64,000 bases of DNA from positions 155,497,201-155,561,200 of the forward strand of contig OY726557.1 in the NCBI GenBank assembly GCA_963383645.1, given 5' to 3'. This DNA comes from Muscardinus avellanarius (lineage: Eukaryota; Chordata; Mammalia; Rodentia; Gliridae). The first letter of the stretch is position 1, and every line of letters starts with the position of its first letter. A program made the translations under genes and the position numbers. Shown one piece after another: positions 25,799 to 63,642 of this stretch. The notes under the pieces were generated by a model, which did not search any database, had not been told where the DNA came from, and saw only the letters and a list, made by a program, of their open reading frames with translations.

Positions 25799-26427
25799 GG
25801 CCCCTGGGCCCCTGACCCTGGGCGAGTGGGCAGGCACTGGCGGGGCGCCCCTAGGCAACCTCCCTCTCCACCTGGAAGGACCCTGTAGGAAAGGAAAAGA
25901 AAAAGGAAAATATCGAAGAGGGGTCAAGGAGGTGGCGGATGCCAGGATATTGGAGATGCAGACAAAACTTATCCAAATGAACTGGAATTATTGGAAAAAT
26001 TTCCCACTAAGGAGGACTGTTTCTTCTCTACACTGTTAAGAATCTTGGACATCACCTGTAAGGAGAGAGACTTTAGCGGAGACCAAGGAGAAAGGCGGTG
26101 CTGAAAGCAGTCTCCGCATTGGTGGTGGTGAATTGTATTCAGGAGAAGCAGAAATCAGAGCCTACCAACCTTATTTATTTATTTTTTTTCTTTTTGGAGA
26201 AATTACACCAAAGGTTGAATGTACCGTCGCACATGCTTAGGAAGATTGGACAACACTCAGAGTGAAGAGAGCTTGGGAAAGATTGGAAATGGTGGAGGCA
26301 GTGGCCAGTATTCAGTGGAGGCAGAGATCTGATACATTACACATGGAACTTTTGAAGTAATGACCCCAGAGGCAGAATGCTACCACCACCACGTACCCTC
26401 GAGAACGTGGGGCAAATAGTTGGGCGA

Positions 26428-27540
26428 AAAGGGTGTTCAGATTAGAGCCTGCTGAGAGGTGAAGCCGGCGATGGACACAGCAAAGCTGGGATGGGAGCCT
26501 GCCGTGAGGCAAGGCCGGTGCTGGGGCCTCTGAGGTGGGGATCTGAGCCTGCCGAGGTATTAGGCCAGTGCCGGGGCCAACGGCTGGCATCGGAGCCTTT
26601 TGTGAGGCAAGGCCATTATTGAGGCCTCCGAGGCTGGGGTCAGAGCCTGCTGAGGGGTTAGGCCGGTGTTGGGGCCAGCAAGGCCAGGATCGAAGCCTGC
26701 CGCGAGACAAAGCCGGTGCTGGAGCCTCCGAGGCCGGGATCGGAGTCTGCCGAGGGGTCAGACCAGTGCCAGGGCCAGTGTGGCCGGGATTGGAGCCTGC
26801 TGTGAGGCAAGGACGGTGCTGGGACCTCCGAGGCTGGGATCGGAGCCTGCCAAGGGGTTAGGCCGGTGCTGGGGCCAACGGCTGGCATTGGAGCCTTCCG
26901 TGAGGCAAGGCTGTTACTGAGGCCTCCGAGGCCGGGATCGGAGCCTGCCGAGGGGTTAGGCCGATGCTGGGGCCAGCGAGGCTGGGATCGGAGCCTGCCG
27001 CGAGGCATGGCCAGTGCTGGGGCCTCTGAGGCTGGGATCAAAGCCTGCCGAGGGGTTAGGCCGGTGCCGGGGCCACTGGCCGGCATCGGAGCCTTCCGTG
27101 AGGCAAAGCCTCTATTGAGGCCTCTGAGGGCGGGATCGGAGCCTGCCAAGGGGTTAGGCTGGTGCTGGGGCCAGCGAGGCCAGGATCGGAGCCTTACGTG
27201 AGTCAAGGCCATTATTGAGGCCTCCGAGGCCAGGATTGGAGCCTGCCAAGGGGTTAGGCCGGTGCTGGGGCCAGCAAGGTCGGGATCGGAGCCTGTCGAG
27301 GGGTTAGGCCAATGCTGGGGCCATTGGCTAACATTGGAGCCTGCCGTGAGGCAAAGCCGTGCTGGGGCCTCCGAGGCCGGGATCAGAGCCAGCTGAGGGG
27401 TTAGGCCAGTGTTGGGGCCAGCAAGGCCAGAACCGGGGCCTCCCATGAGGCAAGGCTGCTGCTTGAGCCAGGGAGGTCTGATCAGTCCACTGGGTAGCCA
27501 GGCCACAACTGGTGCCGTCAAGAGTGGGATCGGTATTTGC
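26428..27540 (+). repeat. VNTR of composite copy 1 (50-bp units, 100-bp period)
   Basis: About 22 units of 50 bp. Two unit types alternate: one contains gtgaggcaaggcc, the other gaggggttaggcc. Both share gggatcggagcctgcc and end in ggtgctggggcc. The second type recurs at 26951, 27051, 27149 and 27249, showing the 100-bp dimer period. Occasional breaks in alternation occur (for example near 27250-27310). The GC content is far above the surroundings. It is stop-poor by composition, which produces long spurious open frames. Confidence 0.95.
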
Positions 27541-27675
27541 AACACGGCATGCACAGAGAATTATCGCAGAAAATTAAAACCAAATGCTTCCCCTAATCAG
27601 CAATAACTAGGAGGAAACGGGCAACAGGAAGTGGTCGAGCTATAGAAAGGGCCCTATAGTAAAACAACTAAGGTG

Positions 27676-27723
27676 ACCAATCAGAGGGTATGAAATAGGG
27701 GAGGATGGAGCCTCTTTAAAAAG
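27676..27723 (+). promoter_or_regulatory. CCAAT and TTTAAA boxes in composite copy 1
   Basis: accaatcag at 27676-27684 matches the NF-Y (CCAAT) core. A ctttaaaa box, TATA-like, follows about 39 bp downstream. The same pair and spacing occur in copies 2 and 3. Known LTR and mammalian promoters use this arrangement. Activity here is inferred. Confidence 0.4.
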
Positions 27724-27930
27724 CAGGAGGTACATAAACATATGTATCAAAGTTAATCACCAAACAAGCATGGGATCAAGGGAGGGGGAGGGAATGTGAT
27801 GGGGGCTGGATGAGGGCTAATTGGACGATGTGTGCTTATATATCCTCTCAAGTCTTATATTCCAATGTGATGTATGATTACAATGCACCAATAAAAATAA
27901 ATTTTAAAAAAGTAAAAAAAAAAAAAAAAA

Positions 27931-28025
27931 CCTGTTTCAAAATAAATAATAAAAAATGCGGGGCTAGGGCTGTAGCTTGGAGGTATAATGACCTTGAGTT
28001 CTATCTTCCTGTTCTGCAAAAAAAT
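27931..28025 (+). mobile_element. B1-dID SINE, right part (split)
   Basis: Continues the SINE at 25508-25620: cctgtttcaaaataaataat, then dID half (ctagggctgtagcttggagg) and tail. Its first bases follow directly on the A-run of the composite's right-hand TSD. Confidence 0.88.
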
Positions 28026-28796
28026 AAAAAAAGAACACAACTGATGAGCTTTTGCTTGATTAAAAAATAATAAAATCAAGAATATACAACTAAAATCAAT
28101 TATTAAAGTATAGAAATATGATTTTTTAAATAAGTAAAAAGTATTATAAAATGTGAATAATTATAAATAAAAATTTAAATAACTTATATGAAATGGACAG
28201 GTTTACTGAAACACAAATTACCTAAATCAAAGAAATTAAAACATATATATGATAAATAAAACTATTGAATTACTCATTAAAAACCTCTAATCAAAATTAA
28301 AAAATAAACTTATAGACCAAAAAGCAGCACCAGTGGATTCTACCAGGCACTAGGAATTATCAAGTTCTTCTGCTGACATTCTCTCATAAAATAAGATAAA
28401 ATACTTGTTAACTCATTATACATGGCCAAACTTTACCCTGATACCAAAGCCTGATAAATATATCATGAGAAGAAAATTTTATACTGACACCTATATTAAA
28501 TATACATATAAAATTTCAACAAAATTTCATAAACATGAATTCAATATTATAGTAAAGATTAATAAAGCTTGAGTGATAAAATTTATTCTGGGATTTTCTA
28601 TTTTATTCATCATTATTCTGTTTGCACTAAAGTTTCAAGCAATAATTATTGGACAAGAAAAGGTAAAAAAATAGAAATTAAAAAGAAATTAATAAAATTA
28701 GTGCTCTTTATATAATGCATGACTCTGTACATAGAGTATCTCAGGAAATCTACAAGAAAGTCATTAGAGCTCAATATATTCATAAAAAAGCAGGGT
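28026..28796 (+). mobile_element. Ancient L1, segment 2 (RT)
   Basis: Resumes where segment 1 stopped. RT landmarks in order: gtggattctaccaggcacta, accctgataccaaagcctga, and the region equivalent to the FADD palm motif near 28700-28730, too mutated to read as such. Interrupted at 28797 by a SINE. Confidence 0.75.
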
Positions 28797-28797
28797 A

Positions 28798-29010
28798 AGC
28801 CGGGCATGGTGGTGCAAACTTGTAACCCCAGCATTTGGGAGGCTGAGACCTGAGGATCATGGTTTGTGGACAGCCTCAGCTACTTAGAGGGCCTCTACAA
28901 CTCTGTGAGACCCAGTTTCAAAATAAAGAATAAAAAATAGGGCAGGGGCTATAGCTCGGAGGTCAAATGCCCCTGGGTTCCATCCCCAGGCCTGCAAAAG
29001 AAAAAAAAAT
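28798..29010 (+). mobile_element. B1-dID SINE
   Basis: B1 half (agccgggcatggtggtgcaa), linker, dID half (ggcaggggctatagctcgga, tgcccctgggttccatcccc) and A-tail. Inserted in the old L1. Confidence 0.9.
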
Positions 29011-29145
29011 CAGCTATAATTTTATTCACCTGCAATGCTGCTTTCAAAAACATAATTAAAAATAATCACATTTGTAATACAGTAAGATATCAATTTAATT
29101 TAGAATGAGTTGAAACAAATAGGTAAAAGTATTTATTTATATTAT
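29011..29145 (+). mobile_element. Ancient L1, segment 3
   Basis: A short stretch that fits the ORF2 part after the FADD region (a tttctatacacc-like segment through to aaagacctgta-like sequence), bridging segment 2 and segment 4. Diverged. Identified mainly by position between flanking segments. Confidence 0.5.
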
Positions 29146-29395
29146 AGATGAGCAAATAAGGTGAACTAACTGAGTGGATGAGAGGGGAAAGAAGAAAATT
29201 CTCTCATGCACATGACATACATTAACAAACATATCAATGTCAATCACTAAGCCAAACATGAGAAGGAAGGTGGAGGAGGGAATGGGGCAGGAATTAGGTA
29301 AGAGCTAATTGGGTGATGTGTGTATGTATAACTCCACCATCTTGTACTCCATTAATATGTGTAACTACAATGTACCAATAAAAATCTATTAAAAA
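29146..29395 (+). mobile_element. L1 3' end nested in the ancient L1
   Basis: Runs from atgagcaaataaggtgaact through the g-rich block (gtggaggagggaatggggca), gggtgatgtgtgtatgtata and catcttgtactccattaata to accaataaaaatctatt. A 5'-truncated copy of the younger L1 family. Confidence 0.9.
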
Positions 29396-30221
29396 GTCAA
29401 AAATTTATAAAATACTGCTGAAAGAAATTTCAAAAGATCTAACTAAATTGGAAGATTTGCCTGTTCATACCTTGGAACACCTAATATTGTAAAAGTGTCA
29501 CTACTAATCAAAATGATCTAAAAAGGCAGTGCAATCTACTCACAAGAGATTTTTGTTCCCTGAAGTAAAAGGATGGACCTCAAATCCATACAGAACTACA
29601 AGAGGCATAAAACAGTCAGTAGAAAATTGAAAACCTAGGTGAAAATTAGAAAATCACATTTCCCAATTTAAAAATTTACTAGGAAGGCACAGTAATTAAG
29701 ACATAGTAGTTAACATCATTAAGAAAAAACATTAATCCATAACATAGAATTAAATATTTTCAAATAAATTGATACCATCTATAGCCAAATGATTTTCAAC
29801 AGGAACCATAACACTTTGCAAAAGTTGAAGAACTATTTTTTTTGAAGTGTTAGGACAACTGGACTTCCACTGTAGAATAATGGATTTGGATATGTTTAAG
29901 ACCTTATACAAAAGTTGTCCCCAAATAGCTAAATTTTATAAATCTATGATAAACAGTAAAAACATTAGGAGTAAATCTTCATGATTTTGATTTGGCAAAG
30001 AATCTTTAGATATGATACCAAAATAAAAAAAGACAAATACAAGGTGTTCCTTTAAAAGTTTTGTAAACCAAAGTACATTCTTAGGAGAGCTTAGAGCTAA
30101 TCTATGAAACAGAAAAAAGTAATTGCATACCAATATTGTATATTTTTTAATATTAGAAATATAAAAATATTGCTACAAATGAGTGAAAAGGCAAACATCT
30201 TGTTTAAAAAGTGAACAAAGG
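29396..30221 (+). mobile_element. Ancient L1, segment 4 (post-RT region)
   Basis: Collinear with L1 ORF2 after the RT: aaatactgctgaaagaaatt, tcctcaaatcc-like and cacatttcccaatttaaaaa blocks, then aggacaactggacttccact and the ctaaattttataaatc stretch. A high number of indels prevents any open frame. Confidence 0.8.
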
Positions 30222-30222
30222 C

Positions 30223-30429
30223 CAGGCACAGTGGTGCACGCTTGTACTCCAGGTATTTGGGAGGCTGAGACAGGAGGATCACCATTCACGAACAGCCTAC
30301 ACTATTTAGTGAGGTCTTTTGCAGCTCGGAGAGACTATGACTCATAAATAAAGAATAAAAATAGGAAATGGAGGTATATCTCCGAGGTAGAATCCCCCTA
30401 GGTTTCATCCCCAGTACAGAAAGAAGGAA
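30223..30429 (+). mobile_element. B1-dID SINE
   Basis: B1 half (gccaggcacagtggtgcacg), linker, dID half (aatggaggtatatctccgag) and AAGG-rich tail. Inserted between ancient L1 segments. Confidence 0.87.
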
Positions 30430-30666
30430 AGAAAGAAATTAAAAGATATTTCTCCAAAATTTAACATTTAAATGATAAATAGGAGGCACATAGCATTGAT
30501 TAATGTCATTATTTAATGCAGTAAATTATGAATAAAAGCACAATGATAAAGCTTTTCCCCACACTACCATGACTATAATTGGATTTTTTTTTTACCTATT
30601 TTCAACACTTAGCTCAAAGATGGAAATTGGAGAATAATTTGGCAGTACTTCAAAAAGTTATAGATA
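30430..30666 (+). mobile_element. Ancient L1, segment 5
   Basis: Continues ORF2 with aaaagatatttctccaaaat, the accatgactataattgg block and agtacttcaaaaagttatag. Ends at the next SINE. Confidence 0.75.
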
Positions 30667-30871
30667 AAGCCAGGTGTGGAATCACATGCTTGTAATTCCA
30701 GTACTTGGAAGGCTAGAATAGGAGGACTGTAGGATCGAGGACAGCCTCAGCGAGGAATGAGACTTGTGTTGACCTAGTGAAACTCTGTTCCAAAATTATA
30801 ATAAAACAGAGCTGGATGTGTAGCTGAGAGATAGAACACCCCTGGTTTTAATCTCCAGAAACACACATAAA
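30667..30871 (+). mobile_element. B1-dID SINE
   Basis: B1 half (agccaggtgtggaatcacat), linker, dID half (gagctggatgtgtagctgag) ending atctccagaaacacaca. Diverged. Confidence 0.83.
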
Positions 30872-31345
30872 ATGTTATAAGTAGAAAGCAGGGACTCCAA
30901 TACTTAGTGTTCATGGCATTATTCACAAGAGCTAAAAGATACAAGCAATTCAAGTATGAGGTATATACATGCAATGAAATATTATTCACCCATAAAAGTG
31001 AGTGAAATGCAGATATACATTATAACATGGATGAATCTTGAAAATATGCTAAATGAAATAAGGTATGCACAAAAGGACACACTATTATTTTCCACTTTTA
31101 TGAAATATCCAGTGTAGGCAAATTCTGACAGAAAACAGATTAAAGTTTACCAGAAGCTAGACTAAGATGGTAATAGAAAGTTATTACATAGTGGGTACAG
31201 AGTTCCTGTTCAGGAGTAAGATGAAAGAGATTTGAAAATAGAGTGTTGTGATGGCTGCAGAACATAAAAAAAAATAATTGATGTAGCTAATCTGTGCACT
31301 TAAAATGGAAAATCACAATAAAATAAAACATAGCAAAACCCTTAA
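30872..31345 (+). mobile_element. Ancient L1, segment 6 (ORF2 end and 3'UTR)
   Basis: Has the end of ORF2 (atgaaatattattcacccat, acatggatgaatcttgaaaa) and a long 3'UTR with gggtacagagttcctgttca, cttaaaatggaaaatcac and aataaaataaaac. This 3'UTR is of the old L1M type and differs completely from the g-rich 3'UTRs of the younger L1s here. Confidence 0.85.
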
Positions 31346-31484
31346 AATATTACATTGCCTAACTCTATGAAAAATGTTTGACCCCCCCGCCCCAAGGAGA
31401 GAATCTTTGATTGGAGAGAAAACATATAACATCTCTGCATTTCTGCTTTGATTGACTGCATAATTGATAAGGTTTCAAGTTTTA

Positions 31485-31731
31485 TATTATGTATGTATGT
31501 ATGTATGTATGTATGTATGTGTGTATGTATGTATGTGTGTATTTTGTGGTACTGGGGTTCCTGGAAGCTCTTCTACCTCCGGGCTACATTCCCAGACCTA
31601 TTTTATACTTTTTTTAAAATTTTTGGAAACAGGGTCTTATAAGCCAGTGGGGCTGGCTTCGAACCAGCGCAATCCTCCTGTCCCCGCCTCCCAAGCATGG
31701 GGATTACAAGCATGTGCCACCACGCCTGGCC
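31485..31731 (-). mobile_element. B1-dID SINE, (ATGT)n tail, minus strand, TSD
   Basis: The (ATGT)n tract to about 31542 is the reversed tail. It is followed by reversed dID (ggtactggggttcctggaag), linker and reversed B1 (ggctggcttcgaaccagcgc) ending ccaccacgcctggc. The TSD aggtttcaagtttta is perfect at 31470-31484 and 31732-31746. Confidence 0.96.
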
Positions 31732-31961
31732 AGGTTTCAAGTTTTAAAGGGTGCCAATAGCAAGAGAAAGACCTGCAGCTATTCTAGTTTGCTCTGCAAA
31801 ACAAGCTGTTTTGCCACTAGTATTTATGACTCAGCTGATTAAGTAATTTTCTAAATATGGGAGGTGCATATAGAGGCTCTAGAGATTCCTTGACAAACCC
31901 AGATCTGAGAATAATAGTACTTGGTCTTCTCCCAGTGCAAAGAAAACACACACCATTTTCT

Positions 31962-32224
31962 TTCTTCCTTCCTCCCTCCCTCTTTCTTTCTTTCTTTCTT
32001 TCTTTCTTTATTTCTTTCTTTCTTTCTTTCTCTCTTTCTTTCTTCTTTTTGTGGTATGGGGTTCCTGGAAGCCCTTCTACCTCCGGGCTACACTCCCGGA
32101 TTTTACACTTTTTAAAATTTGGAAACAGGGTCTCTTACACCAGTGAGGCTGGCTTCGAACCTGTGTGATCCTCCTGTCTCCACCTCCAAGCTCAGGGATT
32201 ACAAGCATGCACCACCACCCAGTG
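31962..32224 (-). mobile_element. B1-dID SINE, (TTTC)n tail, minus strand, TSD
   Basis: A pyrimidine tract of (TTTC)n to about 32047, then reversed dID (ggtatggggttcctggaagc), linker and reversed B1 (tgaggctggcttcgaacctg). The TSD acacacaccattttct is perfect at 31946-31961 and 32225-32240. Confidence 0.96.
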
Positions 32225-32312
32225 ACACACACCATTTTCTGAAAGCATTTTCTCTTTGTAGAACCAGTCCTATTTTTCCACTTAAAGATATAAAAAACAA
32301 AGTTTGACCATA

Positions 32313-32438
32313 GCCAGGCGTAGTGGCACACTCTTGTAATCCCAGCACTTGGGAGGCTGAGACAGGAGGAACATAGGAGTTCAAAGCCAGCCTCAGCTAC
32401 TTAGTGAGGCTCTCAGCAACTTAGTGAAACCCTGTTTC

Positions 32439-32492
<54 letters not shown>

Positions 32493-32579
32493 AAAAATAG
32501 GTCTGGGAGTATAGCCCAGAGGTAGAAATCCTCTGGGGGTGGTAGAAATTCCACCCCCAGTACCACCAAAAAAAAAAAA
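32313..32579 (+). mobile_element. B1-dID SINE with (AT)n in the linker
   Basis: B1 half (gccaggcgtagtggcacact), then an (AT)n tract of about 46 bp (32443-32488) replacing the A-rich linker, dID half (ggtctgggagtatagcccag) with a small internal duplication (gtagaaatcc/gtagaaattc), and A-tail. The TSD is aaagtttgaccata at 32299-32312 and aaagtttgcccata at 32580-32593 (one mismatch). Confidence 0.94.
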
Positions 32580-32593
32580 AAAGTTTGCCCATA

Positions 32594-33461
32594 AAACATA
32601 AGTGACAATATTCTTGAGCTACTCTAAATGAAATACTAACATACCAACTGATAAAATCATATAGCAGTACTCTATCCTTAAGTGATCAGTGTTTATGAGA
32701 TAGTTTGATAGTTTTAAAATGTTTCAGACTGACAGTAATTTTCATGAGCAGGTATTTCAGATTAAAGGATGTTTACCCACACATACTAAATCATCCTACT
32801 TTCTACTTGGTCCATATGCACAGTTCCTTAAAAATATTTCTATGACTATCAGATTGAAGCATAAAACAGGGATCAGTTCACATGTATTGGATTTAGCTGG
32901 AGGTACTGATATACCATTAGAGTTCCACTCAATGAAATATGGAGTATGGCTTAAAAAACACTGGAACATATAAGTACTCCTGGAGAACAAGTGTCCAAAT
33001 ATTTTTGTGCATTTAATCCAGAAAGAAAATAGTCCGAATTCAGGTCTCATACAATGAAAAGTAAAGGATTTGGTGACAAAAGTGTCTGCAGAAGTGGTGT
33101 AAAGATGGAACTCACAAGAAAAACAGTTAAGGGAATTTAAGTCTCAATGGCTACCAAAAAAAGATCACCAATTTCAAAGTTCCCCTTTAATCACATTGAG
33201 AAGATACTTTGTTGTATGAATATCAATCAATCTTATTTGTCCAAACTAAAACTAAACTAATGCATTAAATCTAAGTAAAATTGGTCACAGTTGCAGAAAT
33301 AATGAGCATTGATGCCTCAATATGGAATTCTCATGAAGACAGATGTGGTCACTACTCCCAAGAATACCAATATGGTGACATCAGACACCAATGATTAACT
33401 TTCGGTACGAGAACATTTAACAAGATTTTTTAAATACGACCTGTGGCAAGTCTACTAAATT
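32594..33461. other. No recognised feature
   Basis: Unassigned sequence. Overlapping short open frames at 32719-32973 and 32796-33050 on opposite strands have no family features. Confidence 0.5.
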
Positions 33462-33473
33462 ATTCCTCTTCTG

Positions 33474-33690
33474 CCCAGTGTGGTGGTGCCCACTTATAAT
33501 CCCTGCAATTGGGAGGCGGAGACAGGAGGATCGCGCTGGGTCAGAGCCAGCCTCGCTGGCTTAAGAGACCCTGTTTCCAAATAAAAAATATATATAAAAT
33601 AGGTCTGGGAGTGTAGCCCAGAGGTAGAAGGGCTACCAGGAACCCCAGTACCACCAAATAAATAAATAAATGAATAAATAAATGAATGAA

Positions 33691-33720
<30 letters not shown>
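33474..33720 (+). mobile_element. B1-dID SINE with (AAAT)n tail and TSD
   Basis: B1 half (cccagtgtggtggtgcccac), dID half (ggtctgggagtgtagcccag) and a tail of AAAT units with two AATG variants. TSD attcctcttctg at 33462-33473 and attcttcttctg at 33721-33732. Confidence 0.93.
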
Positions 33721-33723
<3 letters not shown>

Positions 33724-33732
33724 CTTCTTCTG

Positions 33733-34587
33733 TTGTACAGATCCTGAAAATTTTTCTCTGGAACTGACAGTTATTATGGATATGTATTTGCTTTTTATAG
33801 TGTCAGACGTAATTCTGTGAGGCACCAAAGTCTATAGTCTTACTCATGATTCTGTCATAACGTGCATCTTTGGTTGTAATCAAAGAACATAAATTGCCAT
33901 CAGAAATGAAGAATAGATAGATAGATAGATAGATAGTATTTAATGATATTACTATTTTCAAAATCATTGAAAAGTATCTAACACATGAAAATGATAAAAT
34001 ACTTGTCTTGCTGATACAGCAGAAGGTAGACAACAACTTGAGAGTTAGCAGTGCTGTATTTCAAGATGCTTTATTACATTTTGGATAGTAACCAATGTGT
34101 GATACTCTGTGCTTACCTGGATTGCAAAGATCCAGGCACTAGATGGTTAAATTTGACTGAGCCTTTGCTTCATTGTCTAATAACATAATTATAAACATTT
34201 TACTTCCATTTTGTTAGCTTACATATGCTGTTTGTAACCATAGGTTTGCTTTGACCATCATACAAACGATATTTCTGTTGAACCAGAATTTGAGACTGAT
34301 AACTAGTCAAATTGATTTTTTAAGTCATGGAAACCACAGGCAAAACTATGGACTTTATCTTTTGGAAACCTAATTATCAATGGAAGTATGGCCACTGCTT
34401 CAAAATAATGAGGAATGTGCCTGCAATCCAGAGAGCATCTTTCCATATCCCTGTAGGCAGTAGAAAGGGAAGCAATGCTAGTAATTAATGAAAAAAATTA
34501 GGAATCCAGATAGTAATCATGGCACAGACCCTGGAAACATTATGTGTTTTATTGTTTCTAAAGCCAACGATTCAAATCAGCTTAGAA

Positions 34588-34632
<45 letters not shown>

Positions 34633-48219: not shown

Positions 48220-48234
48220 CAATATGCCTCATGA

Positions 48235-48490
48235 CCCGAAAGGCCCCAGAGGTACGGGCCACATGGCCCTGACCCCGGGTGGGTGGGTGGGCGTGAGCAG
48301 GTCTCCCTTAGGCAACCCCCACCACCCGGAAGGCCCTGGAGGTCTGGGCCCCATGGCCCAGACACTGGGCAGGTGGGAGGGCATGGGCAGGGTACCCTTA
48401 GATGACCCCCCTAAACAGAAGGCCCCGACCCCAGGCAGGTGGGCAGGTGCAGGCGGGGCACCCTTAGGAGACCTCCCTCCACCCGTAACA
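48235..48490 (+). repeat. GC-rich tandem 5' block of composite copy 2
   Basis: Units begin ccgaaaggcccc, ccggaaggccct and aacagaaggcccc. Each contains a gggtgggtggg/gggcaggtggg stretch and ends ccttaggcaac/ccttagatgac/ccttaggagac. The third lacks an internal segment of about 20 bp. Copy 1 has one such unit. It is absent from copy 3. Confidence 0.85.
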
Positions 48491-49119
48491 AAAAAAATTT
48501 TTTCATCATCACTACCGAGTGCCTTATCCCACATCCTCCCCAAACCACACATACTCTCTTCTCTTATTTAAAAAAAAAAAAAAAAGGAAACGAAAAAAGA
48601 AAAATATTCGAGAGGGGTTAAGATGGTGCCGGTGATAGCCAGAATATTGGAGATGCAGACAAAACATATCCATCTGAACTGGAACTTTTGGAAAAATTCC
48701 CCGTGAAGGAGGACTGCTGCTTCTCTACATCATTAAGAATCCGGAACATCACCTGTAAGGAGATAGTCTAGCGGAGACCTAGGAGAAAGGTGGCGGCGAC
48801 AACAGTGTCTGAGATGGCGGTGGAGACTTGGATTTGGGAGAGGCAGACATCTGATCCAACCCACCCTGATCCTCTGAAGAAATTACCCCAAAAGTCGAAT
48901 GCTACTGTCGCACATGCTTAGAAACACTGGACATTATGCAGTATGGGAAAAGAGCTTGAGAAAGATTTGAAATGGTAGAGGCAGTCGCATTGGCAATGGC
49001 AAGTACTCAAGGGAGGCAGATATCTGACATAATATACCTGGAACTTTTGAAGAAATTACCTCAGAGGCAGAATACTACCACCACGCACCCTTGGGAACAT
49101 GGGACAACCTGCTGGGTGA

Positions 49120-50265
49120 AGAAGGTGCTTGGATTGGAGCCTGCCAAGGGGTGAGGCCAGTGCCAGGGCCAGCGAGGTCGGGATCAGAGCCTGCTGTGAG
49201 GCAAGGCCGCTACTGAGGCTTCCAAGTCTGGGATCAGAGCCTGCCAAGGAGTTAGGCTGGTCTTGAGGTCAGCGAGGCTGGGTTTGGAGCCTTCTGTGAG
49301 ACAAGGAAGGTGCTGGGGCCTCGGAGGCCAGGATCGGAGCCTTCCATGAGGCAAGGACAGTGCTGGGGCCTGCGAGGCTGGGATCGGAGCCTGCCGAGGA
49401 TTTGGGCTGGTGCCAGGGCCAGCGAGGCCGGGATCAGAGCCTGCCGTGAGGCAAGGCCAGTGCTGGGGCTTCCAAGGGCAGAATCGGAGCCTGCTGAGGG
49501 GTTAGGCTGGTGCCGAGATCAGCGAGACGGGGATCAGAGCCAGCCATGAGGCAAGGCCAATGTTGGGGCCTCCGAGGTTGGGACTAGAGCCAGCTGATGC
49601 TTTAGGCCAGTGCCGAAGCCAGCAAGGCTGGGATCAGTGCCTGCTGGGAGGCAAGGCCAGTGCTGAGGCCTCCGAGACCCAGATCAGAGCCTACCGAGGG
49701 GTTAGGCCAGTGCTGGGGCCATTGAGGCCTGGATCAGAGCCTGCGGTGAGGCAAGGCCAGTGCTGGGGCCTGCGAGGCCTGGATAGGAGCCTGCCGAGGG
49801 ATTAGGCCAGTGCCGGGGCCAGTGAAGCTGGGATCAGAGCCTGCCTTGAGGTATGGCTGGTGCTGGGGCCAACAAGGCCAGGACTGGAGACTGCTGTGAA
49901 GCAAGGCCACTACTGAGGCCTGCGAGGCAGGGATCAGTGCCTGTCCAGGGGTTAGGCTGGTGCCGGGCACAGCAAGGTCAGGATCAGAGCCTGCCGTGAG
50001 GCAAGACTCGTCGTGGGACCTATGAGGCTGTAGTGGACTCTCCTGAGGGGTAAGGCCAGTGCAGGGGCCAGTGAGGCTGGGATCAGAAACTGCTGTGAGG
50101 TAAGGACGAAGCTGTGACTTGCGAGACCAGGATAGGTAACTGCCAAGGGGTTAGGCCGGTGTCAGGGTCAGCAAGGCTGGGATCGGAGCCTGTCCTGAGG
50201 CTAGGCCCGTGCTAGGGCCTCTGAGGCCACTACTGGGGCCATCAAGAGTGGGATCGGAACTTGCA
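49120..50265 (+). repeat. VNTR of composite copy 2
   Basis: About 23 units of 50 bp with the same two alternating types as in copy 1. Unit order and substitutions differ from copies 1 and 3, so the array has changed since these copies separated. Confidence 0.93.
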
Positions 50266-50399
50266 AGGCGGCATGCACAGAGAAATAGCACAAAGAATCA
50301 AATCCAGATGCTTCCCCTAATTAGCAAGAACTAGGAGGAAAGGGGTAACAGGAGGAGGTCAAGTAGTAGAAAGGGCCCTATTGAGAAGCAATTAAGGTG

Positions 50400-50447
50400 A
50401 CCAATCAGAGGGGAGGAAATGGGGGAAGATGGAATCTCTTTAAAACT
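50400..50447 (+). promoter_or_regulatory. CCAAT and TTTAAA boxes in composite copy 2
   Basis: accaatcag at 50400-50408 and ctttaaaact at about 50438-50447, 38 bp apart, as in copy 1. The 5' context (aattaaggtg) is shared. Confidence 0.4.
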
Positions 50448-50659
50448 CATGAGGTGTATAAAAAATTATATCAAAGATAATCACCAATTAAGCATGGGTT
50501 TGAGGGAGGGGGAGGGAATGGGTTGGGGATTGGATGAGGGCTTATTGGATGATATGTGCTTGTATATCCTCTCAAGTCTTGTATTCCAAAGTGATGTATG
50601 ATTACAAAAAATAATAATAATAAATAATTGCCACACACAGAAAACAATATGTCTCATGA

Positions 50660-54876: not shown

Positions 54877-56848
54877 ATATATGCTTATCCTATTAATGAT
54901 TTAAATTGGGTAATAAAGGTTTTGGAGAGGTGCATCAAACAAAAAGGATTATGATACAAAGTACTACAGAAAAAAATTTTTGTGTTGAAATAAGAATGTC
55001 TTTCAGGACTTGGAATAGATTTCTGACACTGTACCAAAATTCTGCAAAAGCTATTTTAACTAATGAATTGTAAGCTGTAGTTTATTATAGATATCTAACC
55101 AAAGTTTTATGTATCGATTTTGACACATAAAGTTTTTTCACTTATTTATATCTTACCCAGTGTAAAACTTACAGATGTAATTAATGTGCATTGAAAAAAT
55201 CTTAGGCAATTAAAGGAAAACAGTATTAAAACAATCGATAATTGTACAATTGAAACTGCTTTTAGATTTTCATGTCTATTTTAAAACCTTATATCCCTTC
55301 ATTTACTAATCTATGTATGAGATAATTGAAAACCAAGACATAATATATGAAACTTGCCCTTTCAGAGCAATATGTTGTTACAAATACATTCATGAATCAT
55401 AATTATCTATTGCTCTATAGTTAAGTAATCTATAGTTAAGACACACAGAGATATATTTAACAATTCTATACCCTTGGATTTTTTCAGTCATGTAAGCATG
55501 AATAGCAAATATATCTATGCATATCTTCATGCACTCGTTCATTTTTTATAATGTTTTAGAATTGGAGTTGGTACAGGAAATCACATCCTTAAAAGATTGT
55601 GAAGCATATTCTCAAATTGTCTCCTTCAAAGTCTGTACCAATATAAACTTATTATGATAAAACAAGAAAAATACCAGAGGTGGACTAGGTTTATGAAATA
55701 GTTGCCCTGTTCCTGTGCTTCCTATAAAGTTGTCCTTGGCCCTTCCTCACTGCCTTTTGCAAAAATCAACTACCATCCAAGTAATTGATACAATGAACCA
55801 GAAAGAAATGAAACTACTGGAAGGATTACTGAGCTCCTCCTCCGAAGCTCAGGGAGTGAGTAGGCCAGGTGTGACTGATGAAGCCATATTTAATGATCAC
55901 CCAGGGTCTACGCTGCAGCCACCACATTTTGCCTACTTGACACTCCCTTAATTTCCCCAAGAAGCTGCCAATTTTTCTTGAATACTAAGCACAAAGAATG
56001 TCTTTCCATTCATTCCTCCCACTGCCTTGTCATTGCCAGCCCTCAACTTGAAAGAGAAAAAAAGACTCCTTAACAATCCCTTTCCTTCACTTTCATTTAT
56101 TTTTTTACTTTCAGTCTTAGCTTTGAGCAATCTCATAGAAAATAAACACATATATGGCTTCTGGGTGCAGAAATCATGGATTCAAGTAGAAATCTCTCCG
56201 TGTTTTGAGTAACATGCTACTAGGCAAGCCTGTCATTTTATCCAGGTCTTTATAAGAATATATAAGACAGGATAAGTAAAAACACATTTTAGCTGCTCTG
56301 ACAGTCAAATTTCCCCAGCTGCCTTCCTAGCCTCTCAGTAAATCCTTGAAGACAAGTAAAATTGATTTTTTTCTTACCCACAGACATTAAACTATGAAGA
56401 ATTAGCTATGTTTAGAATTTTCTATTGCCTTGGTAAAATGCACCAAACATTATGGTTTGTTTTCTTAATCCATTTTAAATAGCATTTATTTATTTATTTG
56501 AATGTTTTGGTTGTTTTCTGTCGAGAATTTATAGGCCATGGACAATATTTGCTTTTATTTTAAAGTTGTTTTCCATTCATGCAATCAATACATCCTGAAT
56601 ATCTATGTTTATTCTTCCTACTAGAGAATAGTTTGAGAAGTGCAAACTTCCTCCTATGGCTCTATGCATTACTTTTTTTTTTTAAAGATATTTGTTTTCC
56701 CACCAATGATTAAAGGGTATCAATAGTAATAGAAAAATACAGCTAATAGTGAAGTACAATCTTTTAGCCAATTATTTGTAATGTGAACAAAATATAAGAA
56801 GGCAATTTCATTTTTATACCAGTCACTCTTTCAGCTTAACATTTTGAA
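54877..56848. other. No recognised feature
   Basis: About 2 kb of AT-rich sequence. Two short opposing open frames around 55715-56212 carry no family signal. Confidence 0.5.
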
Positions 56849-56975
56849 TATAGAGACCCTGTTTCCAAATAAAAATATAAAATAGGTCTGGGAGTGTAGC
56901 CTAGAGGTAAAAGGGCTTCCAGGAACCCCAGTACCACCAAAAATAAAAAATAAATAAAAATAAATAAAAATGATC
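56849..56975 (+). mobile_element. 5'-truncated B1-dID SINE
   Basis: Begins at the end of the B1 half (agagaccctgtttccaaata), with dID half ggtctgggagtgtagcctag ending ccagtaccacc and an AAAT/AAAAT tail. Confidence 0.85.
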
Positions 56976-57008
56976 TGTTGAGTTTAATATAAAATCAGAC
57001 ATATTTAA

Positions 57009-57220
57009 GCTGGGCGTGGTGGCACAAGCTTGTAATCCCTGCACTTGGAAGGCTGAGACAAGAGGATCACACGGTTTCGAAGCCAGCCTCAGCTACTTAG
57101 TGAGGCTTTCAGCAACTTAGTGAGACCATGTTTCCAAATAAAATATAAAAAAGGTCTGGGAGTATAGCATGGAGGTAGAAAGCCTCTGGGTTCCACCCCT
57201 AGGATCACCAAAAAAAAAAA
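57009..57220 (+). mobile_element. B1-dID SINE with 18-bp TSD
   Basis: B1 half (gctgggcgtggtggcacaag), linker, dID half (ggtctgggagtatagcatgg) and A-tail. The TSD aaaatcagacatatttaa is perfect at 56991-57008 and 57221-57238. Confidence 0.96.
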
Positions 57221-57238
57221 AAAATCAGACATATTTAA

Positions 57239-57972
57239 AGCTTTTCTCTCTATTGCTTAGAATTTATTAAATGTATTTATGTATTTACTTAAAAATATTT
57301 ACATGTTTTATTTTTATGCTATTAAAAAGGTAAAATTTAGTGATAAGTATATTTTATGTAGAAAAAATAAATGAGTAGAAAATATAACTTTAAGGTAATA
57401 GCCTGATGTTAAAGTTTCTTATGCATTTACTCCCCAAACTAGTTGTCTTTCCCAGGTTTCTGAGAAATCTATGAATCCTAAATGTAGTTAAACAACAACA
57501 ACAACAAAAACATAATTGTGCTCTTCAACATTAACAAGAAAGATGATATTTTGAGACACCTATAATTAAGGGTACATTTCAGTGTATCTATTGATCAGAT
57601 AACAAAGACAATGATCATCCTGAGGATTTTGAGAATGACCAGACACCTTCATAAATTGCCTTATGACTACCTACTAGACTGAGATCATGCTCACACGCCT
57701 CCTGCCCATCCTTCATGAAAGCCACCTATATGTGATGAGCCTGCAGCCTCAAAGAAGCCTCTCTCAATTATGATGTGACCAATATTCTCCATTGAATGCA
57801 GATTTCTTAATTTGCTGTATAAATCTCTGTCTGTATCTCTAGTGCATGCTGAAATTCTTTTAAGTCACATAAGCCAAGAACCCTGCTTACACTTAGTCAA
57901 CCCTTCTCCTATGACATATTGATTGGAGTCATGTTTTAACAGGTTTAAAGTATAGCATTTAAAATTATAGTT
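57239..57972. other. No recognised feature
   Basis: Unassigned sequence of about 730 bp. Confidence 0.5.
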
Positions 57973-57973
57973 T

Positions 57974-58174
57974 TGCCAGGCTTGGTGGTACAGGCTTGAA
58001 ATCCTAGTACTTGGGAGGCTGAGACAGGAGGATTACAGGTTTGTGACCAGCTTCTACTTAATGAGGCCCTCCACAACTTAGTAACAGCTTGTTTCAAAAT
58101 AAAAAATAAAATAGAACTGGGAGTGTAATTCAGGGGGCGAATGGCCCTGGGTTCAATTTGGAGTACTGCAAATA
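57974..58174 (+). mobile_element. B1-dID SINE
   Basis: B1 half (gccaggcttggtggtacagg), linker, dID half (aactgggagtgtaattcagg, ggccctgggttcaatttgga). Flanks aaattatagtttt and aaattatggtttt form a TSD with one mismatch. Confidence 0.9.
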
Positions 58175-58559
58175 AATTATGGTTTTATACATTTTGGTTA
58201 TTTTTCTTAATATGCTTAATATCCTTGATCTTTATAAAATATTTTAGATATACTATGACTAAAGGTAATCTGGAGTTCCTGAGTTGATCCTCTCTTTATG
58301 CCTTATGTTGAAAATCAAATGGAACAGTACCAGAGAGTGGTTTATGAGACTATAAAAACAACATTACTGACTACCTGAAAATTTATTCAGTATATGCTAT
58401 AATAAATCCTGAATTTGATTCAGATAGTTTTCTCAGGGCAAAATAAATGAAAAGAATAAATGTGTGGTCAAAGGAAACTCTGAGAGAATATGATTTTTGA
58501 TAGGTCAACTTGAAAAGCAGTCCCTCAGAGCTATTCTCTATTAAAAACAGACACAAGAA

Positions 58560-58769
58560 GCCAGACATGGTGGCACATGCTTATAATTTCAGCATTCAGG
58601 AGGCTGAGACTGGAGGATTGCCATTCATAGACAGCCTCAGCTACTTAGTGAGACCCGCTGCAACTCAGTGAGACCCTGTTTCAAAATAAAAAATAAAAAA
58701 ATAGGGCAGGGGTATAGCTCGGAGTTCAAATGCCTCTGATTCTATCCTCAGACACACAAAGCAAAAACA
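58560..58769 (+). mobile_element. B1-dID SINE with TSD
   Basis: B1 half (gccagacatggtggcacatg), linker, dID half (ggcaggggtatagctcggag). TSD agacacaagaa at 58549-58559 and 58770-58780. The 385 bp upstream (58175-58559) hold nothing recognised. Confidence 0.92.
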
Positions 58770-59363
58770 AGACACAAGAAAAATTACTGAAAAATACTAG
58801 AAAATATTTTACAGTTTTATAAATATATAGATAAATCAAACCACAACTGCAATGGAGAAAACAAAGGTATTGAAATAAATGTCTGATTTCTTTATGCTTG
58901 CCACTCTGACTGGGGTTAGATGGAATCTCAGTGTAGTTTTGATTTGCATCTCCCTGATGGCCAGTGATGAAGATCATCTTTTCATGTATCTATTGGCCCT
59001 TTGTATCTCTTCTTTTGTGAAGTGTCTATTGTCTATTTAGTTCATTTGCCCATTTCTTGATTGGGTTGTTTGTTTTGCTAGTGTAGAGTCTTTTGAGCTC
59101 TTTGTATATTCTGGATATTAGCCCCCTATCAGAATGGTGGCTGGTAAAGATCCTTTCCCATTCTGTAGGCTTCCTCTTTAGGTTATTGATAGTTTACTTT
59201 GATGAGAAGAAACTTTTTAGTTTGATGCTATCCCACTTGTTTATTCTTGCTTTAATTTCCTGAGATTTCGAGGTTTTGTTGAGAAAGTTACTGCCTGTGC
59301 CAATATGTTGTAGTGTTGAACCTATGCTCTCCTCTACTAACTTCACAGTCTCAGGTCTAATTT

Positions 59364-59774
59364 CTAAGTCTTTAATCCATCTTGAGTTGATTCCTGTGAG
59401 ATATAGGGGTTTAGATTCATCTTTTTACAAATGGTTAGCCAGTTCTCCCAGCACCACTTGTTGAAAAGGCTGTCTTTTCTCCAGCGTATGTGTTTGTCCC
59501 CTTTGTCAAAGATTAATTGACTAAAGATGTGTGGGTTTGTTTCTGTATCTTTTATTCTAATCCACTGGTCAGTATATCTGTTATTGTGCCAGTACCATGC
59601 TGTTTTTACTACTATTGCTCTATAGTATAGCTTAAAGTCTGGGATTCTAATGTCTCCTGCATGTTTCTTATTGTTGAGAATTGCTTTGGCTATTCTGGGT
59701 CTTTTCTTTCTCCATATAAAGTTCATTATTGATTTTTCTAGGTCTCTGAAGAATGTTGCTGGTATTTTAATGGG
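59364..59774 (-). pseudogene. Inverted L1 ORF2 fragment
   Basis: Minus-strand peptide with [20 protein letters not shown] and a [14 protein letters not shown] motif, typical of the ORF2 region just after the RT. An apparent open frame beginning at 59831 fuses this with the complement of the forward part across the inversion joint and is not a real protein. Confidence 0.85.
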
Positions 59775-59856
59775 ATGCTGGTGAGGATGTGGGGAAAGAG
59801 GAACTCTTTTACACTGTTGGTGGGAATGCAAAGGAGTTCAACCACTATGGAGATCT

Positions 59857-60216
59857 GTGTGGAGATTCCTAAGAAAGGTGGGAATAGATCCACCATATGA
59901 TCCAGCTATACCACTCCTGGGTATCTTTCCAAAGGGGTTGAATTCAGAAAAATACAGCAACATATGCATACCTATGTTCATAGCAGCACAATTTGTAATA
60001 GCCAAAATATGGAACCAACCCAGATCTCCATCAACAGATGAATGGATAGCAAAACTTTGGGAAATACACACAATGGAATTCTATTCAGCCATAAAGAAGA
60101 ACAAAATTATATCATTTGCAAGAAGATGGAAAGCCCTGGAGAACATTATGTTAAGTGAGATCAGCCAAGCACAGAAGGAGAAGGTACATATATTTCCTCT
60201 AATATGCCCAAACTAG
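59857..60216 (+). pseudogene. L1 ORF2 C-terminal end
   Basis: Forward frame with VGIDPPYDPAIPLLGIFPKG and WNQPRSPSTDEWIAKLWE, ending AQKEKVHIFPLICPN then stop, the standard C-terminus of L1 ORF2. Intact as a frame over about 120 codons, indicating modest age, but without the RT. Confidence 0.88.
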
Positions 60217-60530
60217 GAAACACAGAGGATACCAGTGGGACTCCAGATAATGGAGGGGAAATATCAGTAATGTTTGAATGGAAAGATAGGAGAGGAGGAA
60301 GGCTGATCTTGATTAATGAGGGTCTACATCTGAACATGTGTAAAATTATGAATATGACCTTGTTAACCTGGACAACCATTGGTGGGAGGGGGAAAGGGAA
60401 AATGGGTGCGGGGGAAGAGGGCACCAAATATAGTTTAAATGTATACTATTTATGTCCAATAAAAAATTGTTAAAAGAAAAAAAATAAATTGGGTGGAAAA
60501 ATTAAAAAAAAGAAATAAATGTCTAATTTC

Positions 60531-61055
60531 ATTGAATAACAGATACTTGACTAATTCAAGATATCAACAAGAATGTGAAAACAGTGGGTTATAAAGTCAC
60601 CCCATGATGTGTCAGAGCTTAGTATTTGTAAAAGATGCAGTTCACTGAATTGTTAGCTTAATTATATGAACTGCTATTACTATTAAAACTTGATTTTTAA
60701 AACTTTGATTTATTTATTGCAAAACCACCCACAGCTTAAAGTATACTAATTATAGTTATAATTTAAAATCACTGTATACTGAAACCAACTCTAGAACTAA
60801 AGTATAAAACAGATCTAAATTTTTGGAAAAAATTATTATGACATTTGCTCCAAACTTCTTTTGGGGGTTGGGGGAGCCCTTATTTCTTTCATGTAGATCC
60901 ATTCTCATTGTTTCCATGTTTCTGGCAATGCCATAGTTGGTTTCATAAATATGTTAACTTAGGTAATTATCTCAAACTAATCTGATCTAAATTATGTTGC
61001 TTAGCAGGAATGTACATGTGTAGTGGTCTGGCAGTAGGTTTAAAAACTATACATT
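60531..61055. other. No recognised feature
   Basis: AT-rich and unassigned. Confidence 0.5.
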
Positions 61056-61394
61056 ATTGGGCCAGGCCCGCTCCCAGGAAGGCCTGGTTCCAGGCTGGGG
61101 GCGGGCAGCCCGGTCTGCTCCCCAAAAGGCCCAGTGCCGGGTTGGAGGCCAAACCATGGGTAGTTAGGAACCCAGCACTGCTGTGCTGCGCTGAGCCATG
61201 ATGCGCTTAGAACAACAGATTGTACTCTTCCTGTTGAGGCTGTGGGACTCTGCTCTTGGAAGGGAGAAAAAATACATTGCTACCAAGTGCCTGATACCAT
61301 AACCTCTTCAAAACACACATACTGTCTTCTTTTATTCAAAAAAAGAAAAAAGAAAAAAAGAAAAAGAAAAAGAAAAGAAAAAACATTGGAGAGA

Positions 61395-61900
61395 GGTTAA
61401 GATGGCCGTGGTGGCAGCCAGGATTCTGGAGATGCAGACAAAACATATTCAACTGACCTGGAACTTTTGGAAAAATTCCTAGTGAAGGGGGTTGCTTCTT
61501 CCTTACATGCTTAAGAATCCTGGACATCATCTGTAAGGAGGGAGCTCAGTAGAGACCTAGGAGGAAGGCGGTGTTGGCAGCAGCAGCTGCGGTGGCTGTG
61601 GAGGCTTGTATTTGGGAGAGGCAGAGATCTGATCCAACCCACCCTGATCTTCTGAAAAAATTGCCCCAAAGTTGGAATGCTACTGTTGCACATGCTCAGG
61701 AATACTGGATGACATGCAGTGTGGGAAAAGAGTTTGGGAAAGAATTGAGATGGTGGAGGCAGCGGCAATGGCAGCAGCCAGTACTTAAGAGAGGCAGAGA
61801 TCTGATGCAACATACATGGATCTTTTGAAAAAATAACCCCAGAGGCAGAATGCTACCACCGTGCACACTTGGGAACTTGGGATGACATGCTGTGTGAAGA
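61395..61900 (+). repeat. Three degenerate monomers in composite copy 3
   Basis: Each monomer has an aagatgg/gagatgg-like start, a ga(t/g)gcaga anchor (61431, 61618, 61791), then a ctggaacttttgg/ctgatcttctg/tggatcttttg block, a cccc-aag or agaggcagaatgc block, and a cacatgct or gcacact block before gaa-ctgga. Anchor spacing is 187 and 173 bp. The same anchors in copy 1 are at 25955, 26145 and 26318, and in copy 2 at 48652, 48839 and 49013. Confidence 0.8.
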
Positions 61901-61904
61901 GGAA

Positions 61905-63245
61905 TCTCAGATCGAAGCCTGCAAAGGGGTGAGTCTGGTGCTGGGGACATCTAGGCCGGTATCAGAGCCTGCTGTGAGGCAAGGCCAATGCAGGGGCCTC
62001 TGAGGCCAGGATCGAAGCCTGCTGAGGAGTGAGGCCAGTGCTGGGGGCCAGCCTGGTTGGGATTGGGGCCCGCCATGAGGCAAGGCTGGATATGAGGCCT
62101 CCAAGGCTGGAATTTGAGCCTGCAGAGAGGTGAGGCTGATGCTGGGGCCACGGAGGCTGGGATCAGACCCTGCTGTGAGGCAAGGGTATTTCTGGGGCCT
62201 CTGAGGCTGGGACCAGAGCCTTCCAAGGTGTGAGGCAGGTGCTAAGTCCACCAAGGCCGGGATCGGAGCCTGCTGTGAGGCAAGGCCAGTGCTGGGGCCT
62301 CCAAGGCCAGTGCAGGGGCCTCCAAGGCCAGGATCGAAGCCTGCTGAAGAGTGAGGCCAGTGCTGGGGCCAGCCCGCTTGGGACTGGGGCCCGCCATGAG
62401 GCAAGGCTGGTGATGGGGCCTCCAAGGCTGGGATTTGAGCCTGCCGAGGGGTGAGGCTGATGCTGGGGCCACGGAGGCTGGGATTGGACCCTGCCGTGAG
62501 GCAAGAATATTTCTGGGGCCTCTGAGGCCAGGACTGGAGCCTTCCAAGGGGTAAGCCCGGTGCCAGGGCCAGCAAGGCTGAGATCGTAGCCTGCCAAGGG
62601 CTTAGGCCTTAGGCGGGTGCTGGAGCCAGCGAGGCCAGGATTGGAGCCTGCCGTGAGGCAAGGCCACAGCTGAGGCCTCTGAATCCTGGATTGGAGACTG
62701 CGAGGGGTTAGGCCTGTGCCATGACCAGTGAGGCCAGGATCAGACCCCGCTGTGAGGCAAGACCTGTGCGGGGGCCTCCGTGGGCCAGGATTGGAGCCTG
62801 CCAAGGGATTAGGCCAGTGCCGGGGCCAGCAAGGCCAGTATTGGAGCATGCCATGAGGCAAGGCCGGTGCGGGGCCTCTGAGGCTGGGATCAGAGCCTGC
62901 AGAGGGTTTAGGCTGGTACTGGAACCAGTGAGGCTGGGATCGGAGCCTGCTGTGAGGCAAGGCTGGTGCTGGGGCCTCTGAGGTCAGGATTGAAGCATGC
63001 TGAGGGGTGAGGCCGGTGCTGGGGCCAGTGAGGCTGGGATTGGAGCCTGCTGTGAGTCAAGGCTGGTGCTGGGGCCTCTGAGGCCGGGATCAAAGCCTGC
63101 AGAGGGAAAAGGCTGATGCCGGGGCCAGCAAGGCCAGGATCGGGGCCTGCCATGAGGCAAGGCCGGTGCTGGAGCCACTGAGGCTAGCATCAGAGTCTGC
63201 TGGGTGGCCAGGCCAGTGCCAGAGCCATCAAGACTGGGATCGGAA
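61905..63245 (+). repeat. VNTR of composite copy 3
   Basis: About 27 units of 50 bp with the same alternating types. Local duplications are visible, for example ggggcctccaaggccagtgc near 62296-62330, and two long similar blocks at about 61980-62230 and 62280-62530 show an array segment of roughly 300 bp duplicated within the VNTR. Confidence 0.93.
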
Positions 63246-63592
63246 CTTGCAATGCGGTATGCACAGAGAAATATCACAGAAAATAAAAAACCAGAAGCTG
63301 TCCATAATATGAAAAAACTAGGAAGAAATAGGTAATAGGAGGAGATCTAGTTGAAGAAAGGGCCCTATAGAGGAGCAATTAAGGTGACTAATCAGAGGGG
63401 ATGGGATTGGGGAGGATGGAATCTCTTTAAAACTCATGATATACGTAAACAAAATTAATCACCAATCAAGCATGGGATTGAGGGAGGGGGAGAGAATGGG
63501 ATGGGGATTGCATAAAAGCTAATTGGTTGATGTGTGCTTGTATAGCCTCACAAATCTTGTATTCCATTGTAATGTATGACTACAATGCACCA

Positions 63593-63638
<46 letters not shown>
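63593..63638 (+). repeat. (AT)n microsatellite at the end of composite copy 3
   Basis: An AT tract of about 45 bp directly after gcaccagt, where the other copies have caataaaa. It takes the place of the poly(A) tail. Confidence 0.95.

Positions 63639-63640
<2 letters not shown>

Positions 63641-63642
<2 letters not shown>

Follow-up and report, generated by a model that had tools for sequence, protein, structure and literature searches.

The window analysed here is a stretch of 64,000 nucleotides (nt) from the genome of the hazel dormouse, Muscardinus avellanarius (contig C1, positions 155497201-155561200), and it contains three copies of a composite retroelement built around a variable number of tandem repeats (VNTR). 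In window numbering, which we use throughout, copy 1 lies at 25799-27906, copy 2 at 48235-50644 and copy 3 at approximately 61056-63642. All three have the same order of modules, namely a GC-rich 5′ block, a purine tract, three degenerate monomers, a VNTR of 50-bp units, the 3′ end of a LINE-1 (L1) retrotransposon and an A-rich or AT-rich tail. This order, proposed in an earlier note made from the same DNA, was borne out by direct reading and by BLAST, which aligns the copies in the same module order; Tandem Repeats Finder (TRF) likewise recovered the 50-bp-unit VNTR from each copy. The three monomers, each of about 173 bp, are related to one another, with local alignment scores between monomers of 37 to 117 compared with a shuffled maximum of 28.

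The earlier note had also described a GC-rich 5′ block in each copy. Such a block is indeed present in all three, but it is of two kinds. The blocks of copies 1 and 2 are homologous (local score 57, shuffled maximum 30), and that of copy 2 is organized in 90-bp units, as found by TRF. Comparison of the copy-3 block with these two gave scores of 14 and 19, within the level of shuffled sequence. Blocks of the copy-3 type showed a best repeat lag of 47-48 in four of the eight loci with a block of sufficient length. By eye, a stretch of about 180 bp between the GC block and the purine tract is found in copy 3 and missing from copy 1.

We searched the whole genome assembly (104 contigs, 2,497,143,478 bases) with three queries, the copy-3 monomers, the copy-3 spacer between VNTR and 3′ untranslated region (UTR) (63226-63440) and the copy-1 monomers, and scored the best 40 candidates of each. 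These came from first-look sets of 3,883, 3,368 and 4,250 candidates, respectively, sets that possibly overlap and are not copy counts. All 40 scored matches to the copy-3 monomers extended over nearly the whole query at 90-93% identity, besides the query itself at 100%; the 40 scored spacer matches had 93-95% identity besides self, and the 40 scored matches to the copy-1 monomers again 90-93% besides self (100%), so that the close relatives of copy 1 form a set of their own. The genome search with monomers and spacer that the earlier note had suggested thus revealed a dispersed family: 120 of 120 scored matches span nearly the whole of their queries, and together they lie on contigs C1-C21 and C23.

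Fetched loci (L numbers) were used to examine whether the modules keep their order away from the window. The monomer-anchored sample comprised matches 2-21 of the copy-3 monomer search (20 of the 39 scored matches besides the window copy), and all 20 were composites. VNTR, spacer and L1 3′UTR followed the monomers in order in 19; the 20th, L025, carries an internal deletion by which the VNTR is followed at once by the final bases of this 3′UTR and the tail. By eye, L022 has a partial spacer, and in L016 a short interspersed element (SINE) sits between spacer and UTR. Upstream of the monomers, the copy-3-type 5′ block was found in 18 of 20 loci and the unique stretch P3 in 19 of 20, L024 being without both. 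In the spacer-anchored sample of 10 loci, window copy included, the VNTR lay immediately 5′ and the UTR immediately 3′ in every case. Five of these loci have no monomers within about 1.5 kb upstream and are likely 5′-truncated copies.

The monomers also indicate that the family is subdivided. Copy 1 is 21% and copy 2 17% distant from the copy-3-type monomer consensus, which places them in different subfamilies. Outside CpG, TpG and CpA positions, the 20 monomer loci, which as top matches lean toward copy-3-like sequences, diverge from their majority consensus by a mean of about 0.03; copies 1 and 2 stand at 0.18 and 0.15 by the same measure and therefore represent other subfamilies. Within the window alone, three subfamilies and 5′ blocks of two kinds are thus represented.

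Target-site duplications (TSDs) were scored at 22 sites after low-complexity repeats had been filtered, with a cut-off score of 13 and with 460 cross-paired left and right flanks of different sites as the control. A score of at least 13 was reached at 12 of the 22 sites and in 16 of the 460 controls. Three of the 12 were set aside, L016 (SINE homology) and L022 and L024 (simple sequence), leaving nine sites with clean, mostly different TSDs of 15-18 nt: L009, L013, L015, L017, L018, L023, L027, L028 and copy 2. At eight of these nine, the end of the left repeat and the detected 5′ block are no more than about 10 bp apart. At L017 the left repeat is found some 60 bp upstream of the block as detected, with intervening sequence that is still block-like. 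The different TSDs that the earlier note had seen at copies 1 and 2 are present, as a perfect, A-rich and filter-rejected, hence weaker, repeat of 22 nt at copy 1 and a repeat of 15 nt with one mismatch at copy 2; no trustworthy TSD was found for copy 3. The insertion marks typical of L1, TSDs, an A-rich or AT-rich tail and 5′ truncation, are all present in the family.

The three window copies and 18 of the fetched loci provided 21 arrays for analysis of the VNTR; L025 and L026, the latter holding a second composite, were excluded. Across the 18 loci, array length varied from 148 to 2,288 bp at a GC content of 0.61-0.69, and the 21 arrays contained between 2 and 45 units of 50 bp, a unit size inside the range of 30-50 bp that marks the GC-rich central VNTR of such composites. 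The units are of two types, A and B, which alternate. Among 373 neighboring pairs, 8 of them with an unclassified unit, alternation was found in 338 of the 365 classified pairs, compared with 182.5 expected at random, and the spacing was exactly 50 bp in 326 of the 373. Arrays begin with B in 18 of 21 cases and finish with A in 19 of 21. In the composite at L039, which is joined to an L1, the VNTR extends for about 3 kb or longer; with the locus extended by L057, sequence 1.8 kb upstream is still all VNTR.

The 3′ module, of approximately 310-370 bp, is derived from L1. It lies in sense and begins in the last codons of the second open reading frame (ORF2). The spacer aligns with the end of ORF2 and the start of the L1 3′UTR in L019 and L023 at 74% by BLAST, and a multiple alignment of the whole module with three L1 3′ ends gives identities of 58-71%. 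These alignments bear out the L1-like 3′UTR of the earlier note. They do not bear out its "CCAAT/TTTAAA spacer" as a module of its own, as spacer and 3′UTR form one L1-derived stretch. Because the spacer is diverged L1 sequence, its CCAAT and TTTAAA words alone are no evidence of a promoter, and we rejected a promoter-like "CCAAT spacer".

To identify L1 partners, we searched for the L1 ORF1 domain of Pfam; all 150 scored matches, the best 150 of 38,950 candidates, were above the cut-off. Among 12 ORF1 loci, ten belong to a young L1, here L1-A, with pairwise identities of 93-99.8%, so that a young L1 with an open ORF1 exists in the dormouse genome. The 3′ end of one such L1, 88% identical to a recent copy, lies at 60105-60501, immediately upstream of copy 3. 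The other two loci, L043 and L045, are ORF1-only elements resembling HAL1, and L055 is a third copy of this kind, with 2.7 kb in common with them at 94-96%. ORF1 of L043 contains RBD-like and dsRBD-like domains; 129 relatives were scored among 69,465 candidates, at 96-98% besides self and as judged by ORF1 alone. A HAL1-like 3′ end with 90-93% identity to L043 and L045 is found at window 11175-12046. HAL1-like elements and a further L1 type, type B, have 3′ ends related to that of the composite, and type-B 3′ ends are numerous (94-96% besides self for the best 40 of 4,560 candidates). L056, considered as a full-length type-B L1, proved to be a short 5′-truncated copy.

The composite itself appears to be non-coding. 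No L1 ORF1 match was found inside composite copies, ORF1 being the only protein searched for, and the ORFs of copy 1 are only short ones or antisense ones in the VNTR frame. ORF1 followed the composite in sense in none of 29 family loci (24 of them with monomers, drawn from L001-L038); the only ORF1 matches in L001-L038, in L023 and in L009 (the same place as L002), are antisense to the composite. A structured RNA of known type in copy 3 was rejected, as a scan with Rfam gave only two weak mir-297 matches on the TA repeat (E 0.07 and 0.44). We also rejected L025 as a coding variant: its composite ends before the long ORFs, which by eye sit in a separate, retroviral-looking insertion downstream. 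These long frames lie on the reverse strand of L025 below approximately position 5540.

Together, these data make it very probable that the three window copies belong to a dispersed, non-coding family of VNTR composites, one likely to draw its transcription from its own GC-rich 5′ part and to depend on L1 proteins, acting in trans, for insertion. On our analysis, the composite is best read as an independent, non-autonomous rodent element, likely trans-mobilized by L1. The earlier note's suggestion of an independently assembled composite comparable to SVA and LAVA is supported by the dispersed copies, the TSDs, the fixed module order and the absence of ORF1 in sense. In the mechanism that we propose, an ancient L1 3′ end would have become joined to unassigned 5′ sequence. 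RNA polymerase II would start transcription in the GC-rich 5′ part, and the GC-rich repetitive RNA would be exported and then captured by L1 proteins. The tail and the L1 3′ end would let the L1 ORF2 protein begin target-primed reverse transcription. The model of mobilization in trans draws on the insertion hallmarks described above and on the report that SVA and LAVA are mobilized in trans by L1 in cells (PMC7353768); the same source describes the VNTR and the 5′ hexamers as setting the mobilization efficiency of a human SVA. Expansion and contraction of the VNTR would have taken place at the DNA level, a mode of change that has been reported for SVA and LAVA (PMC4432496).

Several observations weigh against this interpretation. 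Ten of the 22 sites, copies 1 and 3 included, have no TSD at a score of at least 13, and L014 and L023, both counted among the 22, are probably a single insertion. Tails at the fetched loci are often AT-rich repeats instead of plain poly(A). The 3′UTRs of L1-A and of the composite are unrelated, reaching 47-50% identity in a forced alignment. Finally, the family loci were sampled as top matches to the copy-3 monomers or spacer and are biased toward one subfamily.

An alternative that we regard as possible, though unlikely, is that the composite is an internally deleted L1, its monomers and VNTR having once been the 5′UTR of type-B L1 or of a lost L1 lineage that then lost both ORFs. The sense orientation of the 3′ module and its start in the last ORF2 codons are in keeping with such an origin, and the HAL1-like elements, whose 3′ end is related, indicate that shortened L1s have been successful in this genome. 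Mouse L1 5′UTRs are monomeric, and AAGATGGCCG at the monomer start resembles what we take to be the YY1 site of L1 5′UTRs; both points count for a deleted L1. Against it, no part of the composite served as a 5′UTR at any of the 12 ORF1-anchored loci, of which about 1.1 kb before ORF1 was covered, and the 29 family loci without ORF1 in sense argue in the same direction. One L1-A copy followed for 3.5 kb upstream of ORF1 gave no composite match beyond 21 bp. When the monomers, the 5′ stretch, the GC block and four VNTR units were compared with the upstream regions of one L1-A and one HAL1-like copy, scores were only marginal, the best (28, shuffled maximum 26) being on the opposite strand. The earlier note had named full-length L1s with the whole composite 5′ part as the finding that would make the copies simple deleted L1s. 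None is present among the 12 ORF1 loci, a comparison that covered L1-A and HAL1-like copies over about 1.1 kb before ORF1. Its reading of the composite as an L1 derivative with an expanded 5′UTR is weakened accordingly, and the L1 origin of the 3′ end is confirmed.

One locus, L039, was considered as an L1 with a composite 5′UTR and rejected, as its L1 is truncated, starting only within ORF1, and adjoins the 3′ end of a composite. The junction is at locus position 1905, where the 3′UTR of a c1-type composite breaks off and L1-A sequence from inside ORF1 follows directly; the remainder of the composite was not found in the approximately 0.9 kb after the L1 tail. L039 may have arisen as a nested insertion accompanied by loss, or else as a chimera from template switching.

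We consider it doubtful that the composite arose when template switching or transduction linked a host transcript to an L1 3′ end, with the VNTR acquired later, in the manner of PVA, which carries PTGR2 in gibbons (PMC4432496). Such a fusion would accommodate 5′ sequence without an assigned source next to an L1 3′ end, and L039 illustrates composite and L1 sequence directly joined; no source gene was identified, though neither gene sets nor transcriptomes were searched for one, and the Rfam scan of copy 3 gave nothing beyond the weak mir-297 matches. Local segmental duplication or satellite spread instead of retrotransposition is hardly conceivable as the main explanation: L014 and L023 (C16, approximately 32.2 and 32.0 Mb), which lie about 160 kb apart in inverted orientation with common flanks, are judged from their sequences probably to be one insertion doubled by an inverted segmental duplication, but the different TSDs, the scored matches on C1-C21 and C23 and the copies with a 3′ end and no 5′ part refute it for the family, and with it the local duplication that the earlier note had tied to an absence of other copies.

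Table 1. Modules and flanking repeats of the three composite copies, in window coordinates.
Feature	Coordinates	Strand	Basis or remark
Older L1 with A-rich tail hosting the copy 1 left TSD	25620-25781		L1-A-type 3′ end, 77%
Copy 1 left TSD, AAAAAGT plus A-run	25777-25798	+	22-nt perfect repeat of 27907-27928; A-rich, filter-rejected, weaker than others
Copy 1 GC-rich 5′ block	25799-25888	+	Sequence; homologous to copy 2 block
Copy 1 purine tract	25889-25911	+	Sequence
Copy 1 three degenerate monomers, ~173 bp	25920-26440	+	Whole-genome matches
Copy 1 VNTR, 21 x 50 bp, B/A alternation	26445-27490	+	TRF array 26445-27470 and unit typing
Copy 1 L1-derived 3′ module (ORF2 end and 3′UTR, lineage L1-B)	27530-27900	+	Alignment to L1 3′ ends of L019, L023 and window 19397-19860
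Copy 1 right TSD	27907-27928	+	Repeat of 25777-25798
Copy 2 left TSD, CAATATGCCTCATGA	48220-48234	+	15 nt, 1 mismatch to 50645-50659
Copy 2 GC-rich 5′ block, 90-bp units	48235-48490	+	Sequence, TRF, block comparison
Copy 2 purine tract	48571-48604	+	Sequence
Copy 2 monomers	48605-49130	+	Within 77.7% BLAST match of 48512-49394 to copy 3 61280-62173
Copy 2 VNTR, 21 x 50 bp	49131-50240	+	TRF array 49154-50005 and unit typing
Copy 2 L1-derived 3′ module	50250-50607	+	Multiple alignment with L1 3′ ends
Copy 2 right TSD	50645-50659	+	Repeat of 48220-48234
Copy 3 GC-rich 5′ block, second kind	61056-61160	+	Recurs 5′ of monomers in 18/20 loci
Copy 3 5′ unique stretch P3	61160-61335	+	>100 bp in place in 19/20 loci, 81-88%
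Copy 3 purine tract	61336-61384	+	Sequence
Copy 3 three degenerate monomers, AAGATGGCCG near start	61390-61905	+	Whole-genome matches; monomer homology
Copy 3 VNTR, 25 x 50 bp	61910-63225	+	TRF rows 61939-62308 and 62379-63185 and unit typing
Copy 3 L1-derived 3′ module	63226-63592	+	Clear homology to L1 ORF2 end and 3′UTR from ~63280
Copy 3 (TA)n tail	63593-63642	+	TRF; similar AT-rich tails at many family loci

Two further features lie elsewhere in the window. An old L1 with a broken ORF2 occupies 6363-9567 on the reverse strand, with an RVT_1 match in 7563-8399, and appears by eye to be 5′-truncated. On the forward strand, an open frame at approximately 20782-21201 encodes an LSM domain, by eye SmD1-like, and is likely a processed pseudogene.

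One group, in two papers, describes VNTR composites as restricted to hominoid primates (PMC7353768, PMC4432496). The earlier note knew of no described rodent element with this layout, and we likewise found no rodent or dormouse counterpart in the titles or abstracts that searches of open-licence papers listed; the family may already be in Repbase or Dfam under a neutral name. We lean, by a narrow measure, toward the view that rodents independently built a VNTR composite, with a two-unit array, 5′ blocks of its own and an L1 3′ end, whose subfamilies exist in parallel and beside a HAL1-like family. If so, an SVA-like design that has been described as specific to apes originated at least twice, and elements would have converged on a long tandem RNA, rich in GC and with a repetitive, GC-rich 5′ end, as a route to the L1 machinery in trans. 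A second, unrelated origin would make a comparison possible where there had been a single case: the shared traits, a GC-rich VNTR of units of about 50 bp and a repetitive, GC-rich 5′ end, would be those that L1 favors in trans, the unshared traits would be dispensable, and the quality of SVA as an L1 substrate would become testable through module swaps. The composite also adds length-variable, GC-rich insertions to a mammalian genome.

Among known systems, the mouse L1s with a monomeric 5′UTR resemble the composite in their tandem 5′ monomers and YY1-like start, but the dormouse element is without ORFs, and a VNTR stands where they have coding sequence. HAL1 is, like the composite, a shortened, non-autonomous L1 derivative, and the dormouse HAL1-like 3′UTR is related to that of the composite (77-79% over 117-147 bp); HAL1 encodes ORF1p, whereas the composite yielded no ORF1 match. 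HAL1s are reported to have arisen several times in mammals (PMC5753468). LAVA is likewise a VNTR composite with L1 sequence. It differs in its Alu-derived and VNTR parts, described as common with SVA (PMC5753468), whereas the 3′ part of the dormouse composite is an L1 3′ end up to AATAAA.

The comparison with SVA is the closest in design. SVA carries a CCCTCT hexamer and a 3′ part derived from HERV-K10 (PMC5753468), whereas the dormouse composite has longer, other 5′ units and an L1 3′ end, and differs further in the alternation of its two VNTR unit types. Neither direct reading nor TRF found the CCCTCT hexamer in the three window copies, and no SINE-R 3′ module was found, the 3′ module aligning with the L1 ORF2 end and 3′UTR. 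SVA, LAVA, PVA and FVA have an Alu-like 5′ domain in common; a search of 61000-63700 gave no 7SL/SRP (signal recognition particle) RNA match at E up to 1, with Alu and SVA references outside this comparison. As no named building block of the hominoid elements was found in it, the dormouse composite would have evolved apart from them. What it shares with SVA is a non-coding structure, a GC-rich repetitive 5′ end, a GC-rich VNTR and a 3′ module that derives from another retroelement, together with TSDs and a tail, and even the VNTR units are close in length, 49 bp in human K-type SVA (PMC4432496) and 50 bp in the dormouse. On this analysis the element is likely SVA-like in its working, and we make no claim that it belongs to the SVA family.

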